Of a stretch of DNA of 31,741 nucleotides, positions 9,207 to 31,390 are shown in pieces (within the stretch, counting starts at the first letter, position 1; each line of letters opens with the position of its first letter). The position numbers were made by a program, and so were the translations under genes. Below the pieces are notes generated by a model. The model was not told the origin of the DNA. It made no database searches and saw only the letters and a list, made by a program, of their open reading frames with translations. Source of the stretch: a virus; the IMG/VR virus record IMGVR_UViG_3300043446_002530, positions 1 to 31,741 of that record, one strand, 5' to 3'.

Positions 9207-9527
9207 ATGGACCATCGCATTGAAGATGGCGAATACTTAAATAAAAAACAATCCCGGTTAAGGTTTAGGCAAGACATTATTTGGCGTTGGCGTAATCGGT
9301 GCGCTTATTGCCATTGCGATTTAGGTAAATCGGCCACGCTTGATCATGTGCTGGCAAAAAGTAAAGGCGGGCATACGCACCCTAAAAATATGGTGCCAGC
9401 CTGTTTGTCGTGCAATGTACGAAAAGCTAGTGCTGATTGGCGCGAATGGTTTAGAGCGCAGGAATTTTGGGATGCTCGGCTTGAAAAGGAAATTGAAGAC
9501 TGGATTAACTTACCGGAGGCTGCGTAG
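9207..9527 (+). CDS. HNH endonuclease, 106 aa, inserted on the opposite strand
   Basis: The protein is a compact HNH nuclease: C32-A-Y-C35 and C66-L-S-C69 form the structural zinc site, and L45-D46-H47 with N61 supplies the HNH active site. Family length and layout fit stand-alone HNH proteins of phages, which are either homing endonucleases or packaging-associated nucleases. Here it lies alone on the plus strand within a minus-strand cassette and far from any terminase, so a selfish homing role is more likely. Its last 23 bp overlap the end of the convergent 61-aa gene. The ATG is preceded by GGGGAG very close by, so the start is not certain. Confidence 0.85.
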   Translation: MDHRIEDGEYLNKKQSRLRFRQDIIWRWRNRCAYCHCDLGKSATLDHVLAKSKGGHTHPKNMVPACLSCNVRKASADWREWFRAQEFWDARLEKEIEDWINLPEAA

Positions 9528-22130: not shown

Positions 22131-22578
22131 AGGACGAAGTGGGTAAGCGCCCAACAAGTCGTTGGTGCAAGCTGCGATTAGGAATGTCGCCGCCCACTGC
22201 GTCAAGCACGCTATTGAGTCGGAGATTGATGGATGTTTCGTCCCAGCCGCCAGCGGCGATGACACCTGCGTAGGTGTGCAGCAGTTGCTGCGTGTTGGAG
22301 TCGTCTGGATTGAGCAGGCAGACGTCAACAGTTGCGACCCATGCCTCGGTGGTAGCTTGGTCCGCCCACGCACGACTGAGATCGTTGTTAGGGAAAGTCA
22401 AAGCAGCATCTACATTGTCGCCGCGCGTGTTGATTGAAATGCCGCTAAATCCAAAGGGCATAAATGCGTGAAGGTAGCCGTCACGGTTGACGCCGCCACG
22501 AATAAAGAAGTTCTGGAAAGCCAGAACGTTGTTGTTGGCTTGCGTGAAGCGAACGAAGTGGCCGAGTGCGTACTGCAT
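22117..22578 (-). CDS. Minor tail protein (gpL/M-like position), 153 aa
   Basis: It lies between the tape measure and NlpC/P60-like genes, the position of gpM/gpL in lambda-type tails. Its start shares bases with the tape measure stop (TGATG). The sequence is beta-rich (QYALGHFVRFTQANNNVLAF, DAALTFPNNDLSRAWADQ, WVATVDVCLLNPDD) and ends with LNSVLDAVGGDIPNRSLHQ, resembling small minor tail proteins with a C-terminal loop. gpL-type proteins may carry an Fe-S site; here only one Cys is visible, so that function is not supported. Call from position and composition. Confidence 0.7.
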   Translation of the reverse strand: MQYALGHFVRFTQANNNVLAFQNFFIRGGVNRDGYLHAFMPFGFSGISINTRGDNVDAALTFPNNDLSRAWADQATTEAWVATVDVCLLNPDDSNTQQLLHTYAGVIAAGGWDETSINLRLNSVLDAVGGDIPNRSLHQRLVGRLPTSSYVRF

Positions 22579-25500
22579 CAGATCCCAATCCGGCGGCGGG
22601 TTGAGGATGATTGCTGCAGACGGCGCAGCGCGGCCTGCTCACCGCGCGTGGCACCTTGCGATGCCGCCTGCTGCATACCGCGCTGGAACTGATCGGCGGT
22701 GACGTAATCGACGGAGTTGATGCGCTCCACGCTGTAGCGCACGTCGATTGGGCCAACTGCTGCTATGCCGCCATCTGCACCAGTCGCCTGACCGCTACTT
22801 GGGATAACTGCAGCGCCGCGTGCTCCGCCTGCGTAGCGCTGCATGGCACCACGCATCTTGCTGGCCGGGATGACGTACTCCGGCTGACCGCCTTCGCCAA
22901 TCATGGCGCGAGTGGGACCGGTTACAAATCCACCTTCGGCATAGCCAGCTCCAGCGAGAGGAGTGCTGAACACTCTGTCCATAAAAGATGCATTTCCGCC
23001 CGGTGTAGCTGGTTCAAGGCCAGCACCTCCACCTGGAATGGCGCCCGCCATAGATTGGAATATAGTAAATATAAGTTTTTGAGCTAACATTTGAGTAGCC
23101 ATATCAATAAAAGCCTTACCAATATTTTCAAACATTGTGCTAAAAGCTTCGCTTACAGTTTGCGTACCTGTAATTAAACCTGTAATAGAACTTGTAAGAG
23201 CATTACTTACTTCGGTGCTAATAAAACCATACTGTTTATACAGCTCGTTAAGCCTAAACTGCCTTTGCTCTAGTGCTGTGCGCAGCGACAGTTCTTGCCC
23301 AAGCTGCTGGACAAACTTTTGCTGTGTATTAAATTCTTGCTGTTTAATTTGTAACGTTTTTTCGTCAAAAGCGCCGCTTTGAATTTCACGCTGCAAATCA
23401 CGAAGTTTTTCTTGCTCTGGCCGCAATTCACTATAGACACGAACACTTTGCTCTAGTAAAAATAGTTGCTCTCGAAGCTGAGCTGAATCAGGCATAAATG
23501 TATTTTCTACGCGTAAACGCTGACTAGTTTCAGAAACTCCCCGTAATGTGTTTGCTTGCGCGCGCTGCTTATCAATACGTGCTTGTTGTTCAGATAGTTG
23601 TAGTTGCTTAATTTTGCGTGCAAGAATATCGCCTTCTAAATTCATTTCAGTATTAAGTTGCGCAAGGCGTATGTCATACAATTCTAAAACTTGTTGAGCT
23701 GTTCCGGTTTTACGTGCTTCTTCAATAGCTTGTTGACGTTCAACATCAAGAGCTTTAGTTTGTAATGTGTAGTTGTACTCAAGTAGTTCTTGTTGTTTAG
23801 TGAGCCCCGCTTCTGTTCCTTGGTAAAACTCCACGCTGCGGACACGAAGCTCGATGCCTTTGCGTTCTTGCTCGTACAAATCACGTTCCAGTGTGAGACG
23901 AGCTTTTAGCGTTTGTTCTGCGGCACGAGCTGCCTCCTCCGCAGCTTGTTTAGCGGCACGAGCAGCCTCTTCTTGACGACGCTGAATTTCTTGGATACGT
24001 TCTCTTTCAATATTGTTTAACGCAACCTGTGTTTGCACGCGGCTTTTATCCAGCAAAAGTAAACGCTCTTTTGCGCTTATCTGCCCCTGTGTAAATTTAT
24101 ATTCAATTTCAGATTCTCTGTTAATGCGTTCTTGCTGTGCAAGCCTCTGCGACGTGTAAACAAATAGGTCTAAATTATTTTTTGCACTTAATGTACCCAA
24201 AGATGCTTGTGTACGCAACTGATCTGTTTCTTGTTGTAGAGTTTTTACACGCTGGGCAGCTTCTGGTGTAAGAGCTGCAGGAGCAGCACGTTTTTCTCCT
24301 TGTAAAGCAAGATTACCTATAAAGCTAACTAGACCGCCTTGCCCCGGATACTGCTTTTCTATTTCTTTAAATGTCCTAATAACGTTTGCGGTTATATCAG
24401 TCAACGTAGTCTTAACTTGTTTACCAAAATTGTCCCAGCCATTTCCTGCATCTTGTATGGCTTTTGCATTTTCACTTCCTATTGTTTTACTTAACTCTTT
24501 AAAAGCTACATCAGCCGCTTTTGCTACTTGACCACTACTTTGCAGATTTGTAATTAAAGTTTTTGTTTCAGAATCAAGTCCTCCTAAAAGTGTTTCAAGA
24601 ACTTGTGCGGCATCACCATTACCACGAAGAGCTTTGGCAAAATCTCTAGACGAGTTAGCAGCGTTATCAAAAGCAGCACCTATTGCAGTGCCAACAAGAG
24701 ATAGACCAAAACCTAACGATCCGCCTAGTGCTCCGCCTAAAGCACCACCTGCACCACCGCCGACTGCTGCACCTAAACCTTGTCCAAATAGCAGTGGAAA
24801 TGCGCCACCTATGATTGCGTTACTTGCTGCTTCGCGTGTTTGGCGGCGTGCATCTGTTCTTTTTTGTACTGCGGCAGCGTTACGCTCCAATAACTTATTA
24901 AGTCTTAACTCAAATAATTCTTCTCGTGTAACCAGTTGCAAAGTTTCTCGGCGTGCTGCATTTTCTTGAACTTTACTTTTTAGTATTGCTTGCTGATTTG
25001 CTTGAGTACGTTGGGATGCGGTATAACCACCACTAAAACCGAGACCTCCTGGACCTAGTTCAACAGTTCCTGATGTACCCCGTAAAAGCTGCAACTGTAA
25101 ACGTTGTTGGCGCACAAATTCAGCTGTCTGTGCTTTAGCGGCTCGTGCAGCTGCTTCTGTACGCTGTGTAAATTCTTGCTGCCTATCCGAAAGTTTTTGT
25201 GTTTGGCTAGCGCTCTCAGCCGCAGCATGTGCCTGTGCTTCTAAAGCTGTTTGTACCTTTGCTGCTTGTGCATCAAGTTTTGAGTTAGCTAGCTGACGTT
25301 CTTTTTCAAACTGATTTTGTAAGATAGTGTTTAATTCTGCACGCCCTTCGCGTTCAGCAAGAATTTGTTCTGTGCGCCCTCGCAATTGAGAAGATAAAGC
25401 CACAGGCGATGCTTGGCCAGGACCAATCGGACCGCCGTACTGTGTAGTTTCTCGAATACCGGCAGCTGCAAGTTTAGCTTTACGCTCTTGTTCTGTAATT

Positions 25501-25802
25501 TGCTTTAGTAATTCCGCTCGTTCACGTAGACCGGCATTAAGTTGAGTAGTAGCTGTAATGTATTTTTTAGCGGCAATAGTAGCTTCGTCTGTACCTAACG
25601 CGGCTTTATTAAATACTAGTGCTGCGTTTCCTACAGCATCTTTAAGATTGTTTATGTTGCGTACAACGCCTCCACTACCGATATTTTCAAGGTATTTATT
25701 TAAGCCATCTACTAATTTAGATGTTGCGGATACTTCGTTTTGAAGACGCTTGAGTTCTTGGGCGCCGCGTACCGCAATCTCAATATCGGCTCTGTAAGCC
25801 AC
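22578..25802 (-). CDS. Tape measure protein, 1074 aa
   Basis: This long protein sets tail length. It is almost entirely helical with many Gln, Arg, Glu and Ala, forming coiled coils at about residues 150-330 and 560-860 (for example EEAARAAEQTLKARLTLERD). A Gly/Ala-rich hydrophobic region near residues 330-385 (LGAAVGGGAGGALGGALGGS, then LGFGLSLVGTAIGAAF) may insert in the host membrane. The C-terminus has the typical YAEGGFVTGPTRAMIGEGGQ followed by EYVIP. At about 0.15 nm per residue, it predicts a tail of roughly 160 nm. The GTG start at 25802 lies 38 bp after a terminator, so this gene may use read-through or its own promoter. Confidence 0.93.
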   Translation of the reverse strand: MAYRADIEIAVRGAQELKRLQNEVSATSKLVDGLNKYLENIGSGGVVRNINNLKDAVGNAALVFNKAALGTDEATIAAKKYITATTQLNAGLRERAELLKQITEQERKAKLAAAGIRETTQYGGPIGPGQASPVALSSQLRGRTEQILAEREGRAELNTILQNQFEKERQLANSKLDAQAAKVQTALEAQAHAAAESASQTQKLSDRQQEFTQRTEAAARAAKAQTAEFVRQQRLQLQLLRGTSGTVELGPGGLGFSGGYTASQRTQANQQAILKSKVQENAARRETLQLVTREELFELRLNKLLERNAAAVQKRTDARRQTREAASNAIIGGAFPLLFGQGLGAAVGGGAGGALGGALGGSLGFGLSLVGTAIGAAFDNAANSSRDFAKALRGNGDAAQVLETLLGGLDSETKTLITNLQSSGQVAKAADVAFKELSKTIGSENAKAIQDAGNGWDNFGKQVKTTLTDITANVIRTFKEIEKQYPGQGGLVSFIGNLALQGEKRAAPAALTPEAAQRVKTLQQETDQLRTQASLGTLSAKNNLDLFVYTSQRLAQQERINRESEIEYKFTQGQISAKERLLLLDKSRVQTQVALNNIERERIQEIQRRQEEAARAAKQAAEEAARAAEQTLKARLTLERDLYEQERKGIELRVRSVEFYQGTEAGLTKQQELLEYNYTLQTKALDVERQQAIEEARKTGTAQQVLELYDIRLAQLNTEMNLEGDILARKIKQLQLSEQQARIDKQRAQANTLRGVSETSQRLRVENTFMPDSAQLREQLFLLEQSVRVYSELRPEQEKLRDLQREIQSGAFDEKTLQIKQQEFNTQQKFVQQLGQELSLRTALEQRQFRLNELYKQYGFISTEVSNALTSSITGLITGTQTVSEAFSTMFENIGKAFIDMATQMLAQKLIFTIFQSMAGAIPGGGAGLEPATPGGNASFMDRVFSTPLAGAGYAEGGFVTGPTRAMIGEGGQPEYVIPASKMRGAMQRYAGGARGAAVIPSSGQATGADGGIAAVGPIDVRYSVERINSVDYVTADQFQRGMQQAASQGATRGEQAALRRLQQSSSTRRRIGI

Positions 25803-25840: not shown

Positions 25841-25866
25841 AAAAAAGCCGCCGGGTTAGCGGCGGC
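25841..25866 (-). terminator. Rho-independent terminator after the tail chaperone genes
   Basis: Read on the minus strand, GCCGCC (25866-25861) pairs with GGCGGC (25852-25847) around an 8-nt loop that contains the stop codon of the extended chaperone frame, followed by six T residues (25846-25841). The strong stem and U-tract make it a convincing terminator, partly insulating the tape measure gene. Confidence 0.75.
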
Positions 25867-26394
25867 GTTTGGCTTTGTCGAGTTCCTTTTGTTGGTCCTC
25901 GTTCAGGATTTGAAAGTAGGCGCTCCAGCCGAGTAATTCCTCGGCGGTCATGGTGGCGCGGACTTGGCTGAGGGTGAGTCCCAGCTCTTTGGCGACGCCG
26001 AATTGCAGCAGGAGCCAGTTGTCCTTGCGAAGTTCGGCGCTCAGGATTTTGGGTCGATGGGCTCGGCGTCGTCCGTGAGGATTGCCAGCATCAAAGCCTG
26101 GAGGTCCTTGTCCTTGACCTCGTTTTTGAGGACGTCAATTTCGCCGGCGCTGAACAGTTTGGCTCCAGTCTCATCGAGAGCCTTGGAGATTAGTAGTTGA
26201 AGCGCGAAGGCGTTGGCGTCGTCGGACTTGGCTTGTTTTTGAGCGCGTTCACGCTCGGCCATGGTCATAGGTGACACCCACATTTCAAATGTGCTGCCAT
26301 CGGAGAGTTCGACAACCTTTTTGGTAGGTTCGAGGTTGGCGGCCTTGCGCAGGCGGTCGATGGCACGTAGTTGTTGAGCTGGCATACCAGTCAC
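25856..26394 (-). CDS. Frameshifted tail assembly chaperone (gpGT-like), about 179 aa
   Basis: This is the product of a -1 ribosomal frameshift at the CCCAAAA site (26053-26047), which joins the 117-aa upstream chaperone to a second frame ending at 25856. The extension has ILSAELRKDNWLLLQFGVAK, ELGLTLSQVRATMTAEELLG and WSAYFQILNEDQQKELD, the look of gpT-like extensions (a short helical domain with a W-x-AYF motif). Without the shift there is no good start for this frame except an internal ATG, so fusion is the natural reading. Such G/GT pairs guide tail tube and tape measure assembly, as known for lambda-type phages. Expression ratio unknown. Confidence 0.75.
26041..26394 (-). CDS. Tail assembly chaperone (gpG-like), 117 aa
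   Basis: The product is small, helical and acidic, with a beta-hairpin in the first half (KKVVELSDGSTFEMWVSPMT) and helices after it (MAERERAQKQAKSDDANAFA, LQLLISKALDETG). It lies between the tail tube and tape measure genes, the classic position, and its 3' end holds a slippery heptamer. The start is GTG 26394; ATG 26385 in the same frame is an alternative and may be better spaced. A TACAGT hexamer (26414-26409 on the minus strand), just after a terminator, could be its -10 element. Confidence 0.8.
   Translation of the reverse strand: MTGMPAQQLRAIDRLRKAANLEPTKKVVELSDGSTFEMWVSPMTMAERERAQKQAKSDDANAFALQLLISKALDETGAKLFSAGEIDVLKNEVKDKDLQALMLAILTDDAEPIDPKS
26047..26053 (-). promoter_or_regulatory. 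Programmed -1 frameshift slippery site CCCAAAA
   Basis: Read on the minus strand, the bases are C-CCA-AAA in the zero frame, the X-XXY-YYZ pattern, ending 3 nt before the TGA stop at 26043-26041. Slipping -1 changes the codons to CCC-AAA and continues in the longer frame to 25856. Position and pattern match the G/GT switch of lambda-like tail operons. Confidence 0.75.
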
Positions 26395-26427: not shown

Positions 26428-26453
26428 AAAAAACCCCGGCTTGTGGGCCGGGG
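26428..26453 (-). terminator. Rho-independent terminator after the tail tube gene
   Basis: On the minus strand, CCCCGGC (26453-26447) pairs with GCCGGGG (26440-26434) around a 6-nt loop, followed by six T residues (26433-26428). It lies 28 bp after the tail tube stop at 26482 and would raise the ratio of tube to downstream tail transcripts. Confidence 0.85.
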
Positions 26454-26481
26454 CGCTGATTCTGACTGCTTTAGCAGCCTA

Positions 26482-27252
26482 TCAAGCGGTCTTGATCAGG
26501 TCGAAAGTAGGGGTGGAGCTGGGGCGGAAGTTGATGGCCACGGCAATGGCATCATCCGGGTTAACCGTCAGACTGGCGGAAGTCAGTACGATCGGCATAG
26601 AGATCGAGCGGCTGAGGGTGTCACTGACAACACCCGCGCTGTAAATACGGTCAACGTACAGTTTTACGTATGCGCCGGTCTGGTTGCGTTGGATGATGTC
26701 GTTGATCATCCGGTTGGCGAAGTTTTCGTCGTCAGTCGTGAAGTACACGGTGGTAGAACCAGTGCCTTCGGCAAAGCCGGCGACGTAACTACGGAAGGGG
26801 GCGTACTGTGCGGCGTTCTGGCCGATGGTCGTAACGTCAATTTCAGTACGAGTGATTTCAAAAGTCCAGTCGCGGACTTGGCCGACCGACTCGTAGTCGG
26901 CGTACGCAACTTGGAAGTAGTTGTTGCCGGTGGCGGTGCCGTCGTCTGTGATGTCCACAGCCGCGCCGCCATCAGTGGCGGAAACTTGCAGAGCACCAGT
27001 AGAAGCGGTGTAGCTGCTGACGTAGTAGGTCGTGCCAGCAGTTAGGCCAGCAGGCAGAGTGCCAGTGGGGGTAGCGCCAGCGCTGTTTTGCACGCTGAAT
27101 TTAACGGGGTCACCGACTTGGAAACCAAAGAAGGTTTCGACGGTGATGGTGTTTGTGGTGGCGTTTACGGTCGCTTCGCCGAAGGTGCCAACAGTGCCTG
27201 CGGGCTTGTAGTAGAAGGCACCGGAAGTGCCCGTGATAACGGTGGCAGTCAT
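26482..27252 (-). CDS. Major tail tube protein, 256 aa
   Basis: Position, size and pattern fit the major tail tube protein. The C-terminal half (about residues 120-256) carries the tube-fold features: VRDWTFEITRTEIDVTTIGQ, YVAGFAEGTGSTTVYFTTDD, and MPIVLTSASLTVNPDDAIAV. An additional domain lies at residues about 25-115 (VGDPVKFSVQNSAGATP, AGLTAGTTYYVSSYTASTGA, LQVSATDGGAAVDITDDGTA) and resembles the beta module of the protein at 11697-12281. It is followed by a strong terminator and preceded by two hairpins, which fits a highly expressed gene. Confidence 0.85.
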   Translation of the reverse strand: MTATVITGTSGAFYYKPAGTVGTFGEATVNATTNTITVETFFGFQVGDPVKFSVQNSAGATPTGTLPAGLTAGTTYYVSSYTASTGALQVSATDGGAAVDITDDGTATGNNYFQVAYADYESVGQVRDWTFEITRTEIDVTTIGQNAAQYAPFRSYVAGFAEGTGSTTVYFTTDDENFANRMINDIIQRNQTGAYVKLYVDRIYSAGVVSDTLSRSISMPIVLTSASLTVNPDDAIAVAINFRPSSTPTFDLIKTA

Positions 27253-27321: not shown

Positions 27322-27753
27322 TTAAGACAACACAGTTGCTGTGTACGAGGTGTCGATGCGGCCCACAAAATGTGGAGAGTCTTCTGTCGTAGAAAATGTA
27401 GGTCCATTAATCTCGCCTACGCGGAAATAAACGCCACTGGTTGTTTTTGCTGTGTTGTTAAGGGTTTCCAGTGCAGTTACTGCGGTGGTAAGCAAGGTCT
27501 GGTTGCGGGCGGGGCCACGGCCTTTTTCCGTAAAAATGCGGATGACAACTGCACCACGCGCGTTGTCCACGCTGCTGGTAAGCGTGGGCTCGTTGGTAGT
27601 GCCGAAAGTAACATTGACGCGGACGTACTCAGTTGTAGTGTTTGCTGGTACGGCTGTGATGTTGTCGAAGTAAACAGGAACAGCAGGTACCAGTGAATTA
27701 AACGCTGTCAGCAGCGGATTTTCAACGGCAGCGCGGATGGCTTGGTAATTCAT
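27322..27753 (-). CDS. Tail terminator protein (DUF4128/gpU-like), 143 aa
   Basis: The pattern fits tail terminators of siphophages: N-terminal helix (YQAIRAAVENPLLTAFNSLV), PVYFDNITAVPANTTTEYVR, then GAVVIRIFTEKGRGPARNQT, and GVYFRVGEINGPTFS. It lies between the gp10-like and tail tube genes, its usual position. The protein caps the tail tube and joins it to the head. It is coupled to the upstream gene by ATGA. Confidence 0.85.
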   Translation of the reverse strand: MNYQAIRAAVENPLLTAFNSLVPAVPVYFDNITAVPANTTTEYVRVNVTFGTTNEPTLTSSVDNARGAVVIRIFTEKGRGPARNQTLLTTAVTALETLNNTAKTTSGVYFRVGEINGPTFSTTEDSPHFVGRIDTSYTATVLS

Positions 27754-29447: not shown

Positions 29448-29730
29448 GCCTGCTCGTAAACCAGTCAACGCCGAAGACAGCCTAGAAGTGAAAGACAGTT
29501 CTACTTCCTCGGCACTGCCCGGAAATACTGTCCGATCTCTTGAGGTTGTGGCAGAAGCTGTGCGCAGCATGTTTGCTGACGGTGTTTCTGCTGAGACGAT
29601 CCAGCAGGAGTTGGCTGTAAGTCCACATGTGTTTCGGGAGTTGCTGAGCCACTCGTACAAAATGGTTGGGCGAGCCCCAGAAATTTTTGAGTACCAGGAG
29701 AAGGTGCGTGTTGGTGAGTTTGAGGGTTAG
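29446..29730 (+). CDS. HTH-containing protein on the opposite strand, 94 aa
   Basis: From ATG 29446 the product has a polar Ser/Asp-rich N-terminus (residues 1-30), then a likely helix-turn-helix at about residues 34-66: VVAEAVRSMFADGVSAETIQ, QELAVSPHVFRELLSHSYKM. The C-terminus is charged (FEYQEKVRVGEFEG). It lies opposite to the late operon, sharing bases with the divergent 64-aa gene and ending 4 bp into the convergent HNH gene. It may be a regulator, or may belong with the HNH gene as an inserted pair; both are inferences. The antisense frame on the minus strand looks like shadow. Confidence 0.65.
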   Translation: MPARKPVNAEDSLEVKDSSTSSALPGNTVRSLEVVAEAVRSMFADGVSAETIQQELAVSPHVFRELLSHSYKMVGRAPEIFEYQEKVRVGEFEG

Positions 29731-30233
29731 ATATGCGTCCAGGTGCGCCGCAAAAGTATTTTTGATGCGGCAGACGGAGTAATCTTGTATTTTTTAGCTA
29801 AACGTTTTAGGTATCCTGGCTTGCGGTCATCTTCGGCCCGCAGAGCCAGGACTTTTTGTTCATCCAGTTTTGCTAAAAGGCACTCAGAACCTTTGCGTAT
29901 AGGAGGTTTTGGGCTTAGACCGTAGCCGTATGCGTGTGCCATATTTTCGCTTTGTGTGCAATACTCTAGGTTTTCTAAACGGTTATCTGTTTTAATTCCG
30001 TTTTTGTGATTCGTTACGCAGCCGTCGGGACAAGGGCCTACCCACGCTTCCAAAACGAGGCGATGCACCAATTTATTTTTTATCCCTGCGGAAGTTTTTA
30101 AGGATACTTTTTTGTAGCCTTGACGATGATCTGCTTGTTTTAACTCAAACGGTTCTAACCGGTGATAACTAATTATTTTTCCGCACCGTGACGCGCTGTA
30201 GCCAATAGCGGATGGGATGGGGCGACTTTCCAT
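29727..30233 (-). CDS. HNH homing endonuclease with C-terminal HTH, 168 aa
   Basis: Residues about 1-55 have the IGYSASRCGKIISYHRLEP segment typical of the NUMOD4-type start of such enzymes. The HNH_3 domain follows: VH57RLVLEAWVGPCPDG, NH76KNGIKTDN84RLEN88LEYCT, then EN97MAHAYG. Residues about 117-168 form an HTH (LLAKLDEQKVLALRAEDD, LAKKYKITPSAASKILLRR, then TWTHI). It probably spreads by cutting alleles without the insertion near the capsid gene. Its ATG directly follows the U-tract of the capsid terminator, with no ribosome binding site. It converges on the plus-strand HTH gene. Confidence 0.88.
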   Translation of the reverse strand: MESRPIPSAIGYSASRCGKIISYHRLEPFELKQADHRQGYKKVSLKTSAGIKNKLVHRLVLEAWVGPCPDGCVTNHKNGIKTDNRLENLEYCTQSENMAHAYGYGLSPKPPIRKGSECLLAKLDEQKVLALRAEDDRKPGYLKRLAKKYKITPSAASKILLRRTWTHI

Positions 30234-30234
30234 G

Positions 30235-30257
30235 AAAAAGGGGCCACGAAGGGCCCC
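30235..30257 (-). terminator. Rho-independent terminator after the capsid gene
   Basis: Read on the minus strand, GGGGCC (30257-30252) pairs with GGCCCC (30245-30240) around a 6-nt loop, followed by five T residues (30239-30235). The HNH start codon begins 2 nt further. It ends the scaffold/capsid transcript. Confidence 0.8.
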
Positions 30258-30267
30258 TATCCTACAC

Positions 30268-30289
30268 TACTGATAACCTGTTATCAGTA
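30268..30289. repeat. 10-bp inverted repeat at the capsid stop codon
   Basis: TACTGATAAC (30268-30277) and GTTATCAGTA (30280-30289) are perfect arms with a 2-nt centre. The capsid stop codon (30286-30284) lies within it, and the strong terminator follows 11 bp downstream on the minus strand. It could protect mRNA ends or be an operator-like site. Confidence 0.6.
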
Positions 30290-31390
30290 TGCCGAGACAT
30301 CTAGCGGAGTGTTAACAAGCAGGCGTGCGATGGGCACTTGCTTGGTCGTGCTGTAGACGAGGTTCCAGCTGCTGGTGTTGGCCAGGTTGCCGGAGGTGGA
30401 GGCGTTGGTGGGGTTGTCACCAGCGGCAACCCAAGAGGTGCCGGTGATGTGGTAACCGTAGTGGTAGTCAACCGCCAGGATGTCCTGCATGGACAGGATG
30501 TTGCGGTCGGCGCCGAGGCGGAGGTCCTGTTGGACACCCTCGGAAACAACGCCAGTCTTGAACAGGTAGACCGGGTACTTCACCGCATGGGTGGAGGTGC
30601 CGCCAGTCAGATAGGTCAGTTGGTCGTCGATGACGACGCGCAGACCGGCGAAGTAAGGCACTGCGGTTTGTTCCAGGCCGACGCCGCCGTTGCCGAAGGT
30701 GATAGCGGTGCCGCTGGACAGAGCAGAAGCGCCGAACGTCAGCATTCCGACCTGCTGGAGGTAGTACGCAACGTTCGAGTGCATGGCGATCGAGTCGAGG
30801 TCGTCGCCGCGCTCGCCGAGTTTGGCCTTGGCCTTGACCACGTTGGCTGCGTTCAGGAAGTTGGCTTCCGTCATCGAGCCGGGCACACCAGCAAAGGAGG
30901 CGTTGACTTGGTTGGGGCCAAGCACACCGGCGCCGCTAATACCGCCAAACAGACCGAGCAGCTGGTTGGTCAGCGTGGCGGTCTTGAGTTTGTTGATGGC
31001 GGCTGTCAGCTGGTTGCGGACGTGGCTGAGGGGGTCAGCTCCAGAGCCGAGTTTGCTGAGGTCGTCCGCGGCGTAGGCGAAACCGCGGTGCAGAATCGTC
31101 ATGATCTGCTCGTCGGCAGTGACGTTCTGGGCGGTCAGGTAGCCGAGGCCGCCGTTCCAGGTCGAGGTCGACAGGATCTGGGTTTCGGTCGGGGAGATGG
31201 GATCGAAGAACGGCACGCGGACGCGGGTGCCGCCGGCGCGGGCGTCAAGCGCAGCGTTGCGTTGCACAATGCCGCTCTGGATCCACTTCGATTGCTCGAA
31301 AATGCCCTCGGCGGTGTACTGGAGGAACTCGGGGCGAGTTACCAGGTTCGAGAGAAACGTTCCCGAAAAATTGCTGTTCGTTGCAGACAT
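30284..31390 (-). CDS. Major capsid protein, 368 aa
   Basis: It forms the head shell. The N-terminal part (TFLSNLVTRPEFLQYTAEGI, then FEQSKWIQSGIVQRNAALDA) and the following GGTRVRVPFFDPIS, with QILSTSTWNGGLGYLTAQNV and HRGFAYAADDLSKL, match the HK97-fold major capsid type found in many siphophages. Further on, SIAMHSNVAYYLQQ and FAGLRVVIDDQLTY are typical of the central domain. It is preceded by the scaffold-like gene, has GGAG upstream of its ATG, and is followed by a terminator, consistent with high expression. No protease-cleaved delta domain is obvious. Confidence 0.9.
   Translation of the reverse strand: MSATNSNFSGTFLSNLVTRPEFLQYTAEGIFEQSKWIQSGIVQRNAALDARAGGTRVRVPFFDPISPTETQILSTSTWNGGLGYLTAQNVTADEQIMTILHRGFAYAADDLSKLGSGADPLSHVRNQLTAAINKLKTATLTNQLLGLFGGISGAGVLGPNQVNASFAGVPGSMTEANFLNAANVVKAKAKLGERGDDLDSIAMHSNVAYYLQQVGMLTFGASALSSGTAITFGNGGVGLEQTAVPYFAGLRVVIDDQLTYLTGGTSTHAVKYPVYLFKTGVVSEGVQQDLRLGADRNILSMQDILAVDYHYGYHITGTSWVAAGDNPTNASTSGNLANTSSWNLVYSTTKQVPIARLLVNTPLDVSAY

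Follow-up and report, generated by a model that had tools for sequence, protein, structure and literature searches.

A cyanophage-like siphovirus very probably uses a programmed -1 ribosomal frameshift in its tail assembly chaperone gene, by which a short chaperone, G, and a longer G-T fusion would be made from one gene. Our analysis concerns a window of 31,741 bases (the whole stretch of DNA studied, an IMG/VR virus record) whose nearest named relatives are cyanophages; its host is probably a cyanobacterium. The reading builds on the sequence anatomy of the gene, on a frame and a heptamer that relatives conserve, on signs that T is selected for coding, and on a predicted chaperone fold and the gene order; we infer that slipping occurs, how efficient it is and what G and GT do. 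Judged by the alignments, this is a real and conserved programmed -1 site of the lambda G/GT kind, new as a member of that class only.

Slip site and reading frames

Read directly from the minus strand, the zero frame ends with ATC GAC CCA AAA TCC TGA. The initial annotation had described a CCCAAAA motif read as C-CCA-AAA with a TGA one codon further on, and precisely this arrangement is seen (Table 1). The phase of C_CCA_AAA is the one required for tandem -1 slippage, from CCA AAA to CCC AAA, and the -1 frame (CCC AAA ATC CTG AGC ...) remains open through 63 new codons to a TAA at 25858-25856, in good agreement with the extension of about 62 codons ending at 25856 that had been proposed. The 117-aa length originally given to the upstream protein holds for the GTG start; the better-conserved ATG, which shortens G to 114 aa, is the likelier start because relatives align from that methionine. 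No clear Shine-Dalgarno sequence precedes either of the two candidate starts. Counted from the ATG, the predicted fusion has about 176 aa, with ..EPIDPKILSAELR.. as its predicted junction peptide. The bare heptamer is not rare, with five copies in the window versus 6.25 expected, and its frequency was therefore dropped as evidence; what goes beyond chance is its phase, its position and its conservation.

Table 1. Features of the chaperone region and its neighbourhood in the window
Feature	Position	Strand	Remarks
Tail length tape measure protein	22578..25802	minus	next gene downstream; phrog_339 (1.7e-11), phrog_1538 (1.2e-9)
Intrinsic-terminator-like hairpin	25847..25866	minus	GCCGCCG-CTAACC-CGGCGGC-TTTTTT; TAA of the extended frame in the loop, followed by T6
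T-like extension, -1 frame	25856..26047	minus	63 codons, then TAA; own usable start absent
G-like ORF, zero-frame tail assembly chaperone	26041..26394	minus	117 aa (GTG 26394) or 114 aa (ATG 26385)
Zero-frame stop TGA	26043-26041	minus	one codon past the heptamer
TCC codon	26046-26044	minus	between heptamer and stop
Slippery heptamer C_CCA_AAA	26053-26047	minus	-1 frame codons CCC AAA
Gene directly upstream	26482..27252	minus	in the major tail protein slot; itself without a confident family match
Tail terminator protein	27322..27753	minus	tail-module context; PF13554 (1.7e-8), phrog_179

Conservation of the slip site

We collected 80 relatives by protein similarity, and a codon-neutral pattern (any proline codon, any lysine codon) added others. 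The resulting close set holds 121 distinct members and two more distant -1 groups hold 65 and 29, a total of 215, whose members share ancestry so that member counts exceed the number of independent events. T lies at -1 in all 121 close relatives. Conservation of the heptamer in homologues had been put forward as a check on the original proposal, and it was borne out: a canonical in-phase heptamer is kept in 108 of the 121 close relatives, versus 18.5 expected from synonymous resampling by codon usage. The same resampling predicts 5.6 and 4.2 cases in the more distant groups, where 65/65 and 29/29 were found, so that all -1 members together retain the heptamer in 202 of 215 cases versus about 28 expected from synonymous codon choice.

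The close relatives use C_CCA_AAA (84), C_CCA_AAG (22), A_AAA_AAC (2) and C_CCC_AAG (13), and the more distant groups A_AAA_AAC, C_CCA_AAA, A_AAA_AAA and G_GGA_AAC. In the close set, the slip-site proline is encoded by CCA in 108 members, by CCC in 13 and never by CCG or CCT, whereas all four codons are in use elsewhere in the gene (CCA in 117 of 583). Its synonymous entropy of 0.49 is the lowest among the proline columns, the others ranging from 1.23 to 1.64. Double coding does not explain this constraint on CCA AAR, because ribosomes making either product read both codons in the zero frame. In two relatives the heptamer has lost its first C (GAT CCA AAA), and A_AAA_AAC has been gained one codon later. 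Prochlorococcus phage P-HS2 (L086) carries T at -1 with A_AAG_GAA and no X_XXY_YYZ heptamer; its motif corresponds to what PRFect (PMC10885494) calls the 'threetwotwo' pattern. For some S-H1-like members, alignments that began upstream of the G gene gave the false impression of early stops.

The T frame as protein

Of the codons that differ by a single change, 79% are synonymous in the T frame, whereas the two remaining frames give 13% and 4%. T-frame diversity in the close relatives falls mostly at third positions, and the frame is free of stops. Sequence comparison thus indicates that T evolves as a protein and that both the G and the T frame are under protein-level selection. A usable T start was searched for in the 121 close relatives and none was found: nearly all of them lack a T-frame start ahead of the conserved region, the first ATG, GTG or TTG of the second frame lies 32 nt past the first stop, within conserved T sequence, in 104 of 121, and none of the remaining first-start positions is plausible as a gene start. 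The initial annotation had named an independent T start as one observation that would count against a fusion; with no plausible start among these relatives, the fusion reading survives.

Protein family, fold and gene neighbourhood

G matches the PHROGs families phrog_344, tail assembly chaperone (E 1.6e-5), and phrog_20784 (E 2.7e-32), T matches phrog_26456 (2.9e-7) and the tail protein family phrog_337 (6e-5), and the fused protein matches phrog_14766, a tail protein, over both halves (4.3e-6). Distant relatives show the same pattern of PHROGs matches. Pfam and NCBIfam gave no above-threshold match for G, and a sequence-profile search of the PDB with G returned none. An AlphaFold model of G has moderate confidence (pLDDT 67.6); its two best PDB matches (E 6e-4 and 8e-4, probability 1.0, TM about 0.46-0.49) are both chains of 2OB9, a tail assembly chaperone from HK97, and its named BFVD matches include several tail assembly chaperones. 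The model and the family matches support the assignment of G to the tail assembly chaperone fold or family.

The gene directly upstream of G corresponds to a slot that in cyanophage S-2L carries the annotation major tail protein. The order is major tail protein, chaperone gene and tape measure, the first of these being a likely assignment. From these data, two PHROGs families that have no assigned function would receive roles, phrog_20784 as G and phrog_26456 as T, and a T half so far missing from annotations is identified in a large family of cyanophage-like phages whose annotation is poor. By eye, two candidate HNH homing endonuclease ORFs were noted elsewhere in the window, one at 29727-30233 (minus), flanked by the capsid gene and the connector genes, and one at 9207-9527 (plus).

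Alternative explanations

T might be a separate small gene, translated from its own start by reinitiation or from an internal ribosome binding site and with no frameshift. Many relatives do have an in-frame ATG about 32 nt past the first stop, but it falls inside the conserved T domain, where its use would remove conserved residues (AELRKDNW...), and the start position is inconsistent among relatives. A separate gene would moreover leave the synonymous conservation of CCA AAR without explanation, and phrog_14766 proteins cover both halves; we consider it very unlikely. Even less probable is transcriptional slippage on the A4/C3 run as the source of the fusion. Polymerase slippage underlies some bacterial recoding, usually reported at runs longer than four A, but the run here comprises only four, and the A_AAA_AAC, G_GGA_AAC and C_CCC variants share a logic of codon-anticodon re-pairing with no long run.

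That G alone is expressed, T being a non-functional overlap, is scarcely credible given the strong coding signature and the family matches of the T frame, which persists across both the -1 and the +1 groups. One contig (L002) has part of G in the T frame, looks like the product of an indel or sequencing error, and could be cited in favour of the split being a sequencing or assembly error or a single gene in decay. The split occupies an identical position in well over 200 distinct contigs, however, is present in the cultured phages KBS-S-2A, S-H1, S-2L and P-HS2, and is accompanied by protein-level selection on both frames; the comparative data refute an error or decay, whose probability we regard as practically nil. 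A programmed -1 frameshift hence remains the reading that we favour.

Stimulators and terminator hairpins

For the window and the heptamer group, downstream RNA structure showed no excess stability compared with synonymous shuffles, no covariation and no conservation. A stem-loop 6 nt 3' of the window's heptamer (GCGCCGAA...TTCGGCGT) was accordingly rejected as a stimulator (z = -0.9, no covariation). Read by eye, the sequence GACGACGCCGAGCCCATCGA upstream of the slip site contains nothing AGGAGG-like, such as a Shine-Dalgarno-like stimulator about 10-14 nt 5' of the site would require. A bare heptamer is nevertheless plausible as a site because C_CCA_AAG is highly shift-prone in E. coli (PMC5009743) and V_VVA_AAR motifs, C_CCA_AAA included, are among the most efficient there (PMC4066793), values that in both cases apply to E. 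coli ribosomes as opposed to cyanobacterial ones.

The terminator loop that had been reported to enclose the stop of the extended frame is present, with the TAA in its loop, and a hairpin enclosing the T stop and followed by a T run recurs in 115 of 119 relatives versus 0 of 479 control windows. A role in stimulating the slip is unsupported, as the hairpin lies about 0.2 kb from the slip site; we read it as a transcription feature that probably lowers transcription into the tape measure gene. A strong terminator-like hairpin (z -3.9) at 26433-26454 (minus) also separates the chaperone gene from the tail gene that precedes it. Together, the two hairpins could produce a stepwise fall in expression from the major tail protein over the chaperone to the tape measure protein. 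Another terminator-like hairpin (30239-30258, minus) immediately follows the probable capsid gene (30284-31390).

Relatives with C_CCC

Thirteen of the 121 close relatives read GAC CCC AAG AAY TAG and lack a canonical heptamer here; the sole tetramer that permits -1 re-pairing within their overlap is C_CCC. All 13 have a strong stem-loop about 8 nt past C_CCC (mean -20.5 kcal/mol, z about -1.8), while z ranges from 0 to +0.7 for the same region in the other groups, and a broader scan found the stem-loop in all 30 distinct C_CCC cases (mean z -2.0). Third-position diversity in this group drops to 0.047 in the 45 nt past the slip site, compared with 0.32 in adjacent upstream G and 0.31 in T over the 45 nt that follow; none of the heptamer subsets matched for G diversity fell below 0.18 past the slip. 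In E. coli, frameshifting at C_CC.C rose above background when a 3' pseudoknot was added (Sharma 2014, PMC4066793). It would thus appear that in the C_CCC relatives a tetramer with a 3' stimulator substitutes for the heptamer.

Carriers of C_CCC_AAG_AAY_TAG include L027, L087, L175 and L402-L436. The link between C_CCC and the hairpin is not a universal rule: no hairpin accompanies the CCC_AAG_AAC of L401, a contig from a gammaproteobacterial MAG. The G/T tree places the C_CCC relatives in at least two spots, and the G tree forces two changes. Two independent origins were not adopted as the explanation, since the L175 junction is closer to the other C_CCC clade than to its own sister, which makes transfer of a cassette just as likely and suggests that a junction cassette has been transferred among these relatives.

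Relatives with T at +1

A marine sister group around AG-345-A17 (rows L083 and L321-L400) has T at +1 (or -2) in 73 of 74 distinct members, with the signature TTR_AAA_AGC and an overlap of 11-14 nt. AGC directly follows AAA in 72 of 73 marine members, whereas the rest of G uses it for 96 of 534 serine codons. The conservation of CCA carries more weight than this, because the alanine codon GCN of the T frame partly fixes AGC. Three KBS-like contigs (L306, L313 and L317) likewise have T at +1, with ATG_AAA_AGC. The marine sister group and two or more KBS-like lineages may use a +1 shift at AAA_AGC, which would account for these frames, the frame being the evidence for it. The protein tree requires several changes of direction, and some of the rows concerned sit on long branches; the direction of frameshifting may possibly have changed between related phages.

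Proposed mechanism and turnover of the signal

The data lend themselves to a model in which the majority of ribosomes read C_CCA_AAA_TCC_TGA and release the short chaperone G. A minority would slip by -1 with tRNA-Pro on CCA and tRNA-Lys on AAA, re-pair on CCC and AAA, and continue to the G-T fusion. By analogy with lambda gpG/gpGT, G would coat the tape measure protein and the T domain would recruit the major tail protein. Tail assembly would then be governed by the G:GT ratio that results from the slip.

We lean slightly towards the view that the frameshift signal is an exchangeable module, in the form of a bare canonical heptamer, a weak C_CCC tetramer with a near-invariant 3' stem-loop, or a +1 site at AAA_AGC, with the G-T fusion kept throughout. 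Across more than 300 distinct junctions, selection appears to maintain G-T despite variation in the slip signal and even in shift direction. Such turnover among recoding signals is more interesting than the new member itself, and a specialist might not expect it; we found no earlier report of it in the open-licence literature. If true, these phages would offer a natural system for studying how one protein ratio survives changes in the mechanism and direction of recoding.

Comparison with known systems

The minority of relatives with C_CCC share with the C_CC.C site of Sharma 2014 (PMC4066793) the Z_ZZN motif, here combined with a conserved 3' stem-loop; they are known by sequence comparison alone, and the motif is absent from the window. 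The HK97 tail assembly chaperone (2OB9), the best PDB match of the predicted G fold, is only 15% identical to G, and that match comes from a moderate-confidence model. Among cyanophages, the CPKG_00058 region of KBS-S-2A encodes a fusion 59% identical to that of the window, with T at -1 in both; its slip site is A_AAA_AAC, and the record annotates the short protein only, as hypothetical. S2L_44 of cyanophage S-2L, annotated as a putative tail assembly chaperone, is a homologous G with C_CCA_AAG and T at -1, but its zero frame extends about 17 codons past the slip site. The T half is missing from the deposited annotations of KBS-S-2A (HQ634187.1), S-2L (MW334946.1) and P-HS2 (MT490303.1).

The closest parallel in design is lambda, in which gpG attaches to the tape measure protein and gpGT brings in the major tail protein through its T part (PMC5009743). 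The initial annotation had placed the frameshift among those of the lambda-like G/GT kind, an assignment that the PHROGs matches, the gene order, the HK97 fold match and the heptamer conservation support by inference. Both systems combine a short chaperone with a C-terminal extension, have an X_XXY_YYZ site for -1 slippage near the end of G, lie just upstream of the tape measure gene, and have a T frame that lacks a usable start. They differ in the heptamer (C_CCA_AAA in the window, G_GGA_AAG in lambda), in the probably cyanobacterial host of the window virus, and in the position of the window's extended-frame stop within a terminator hairpin ahead of the tape measure gene.
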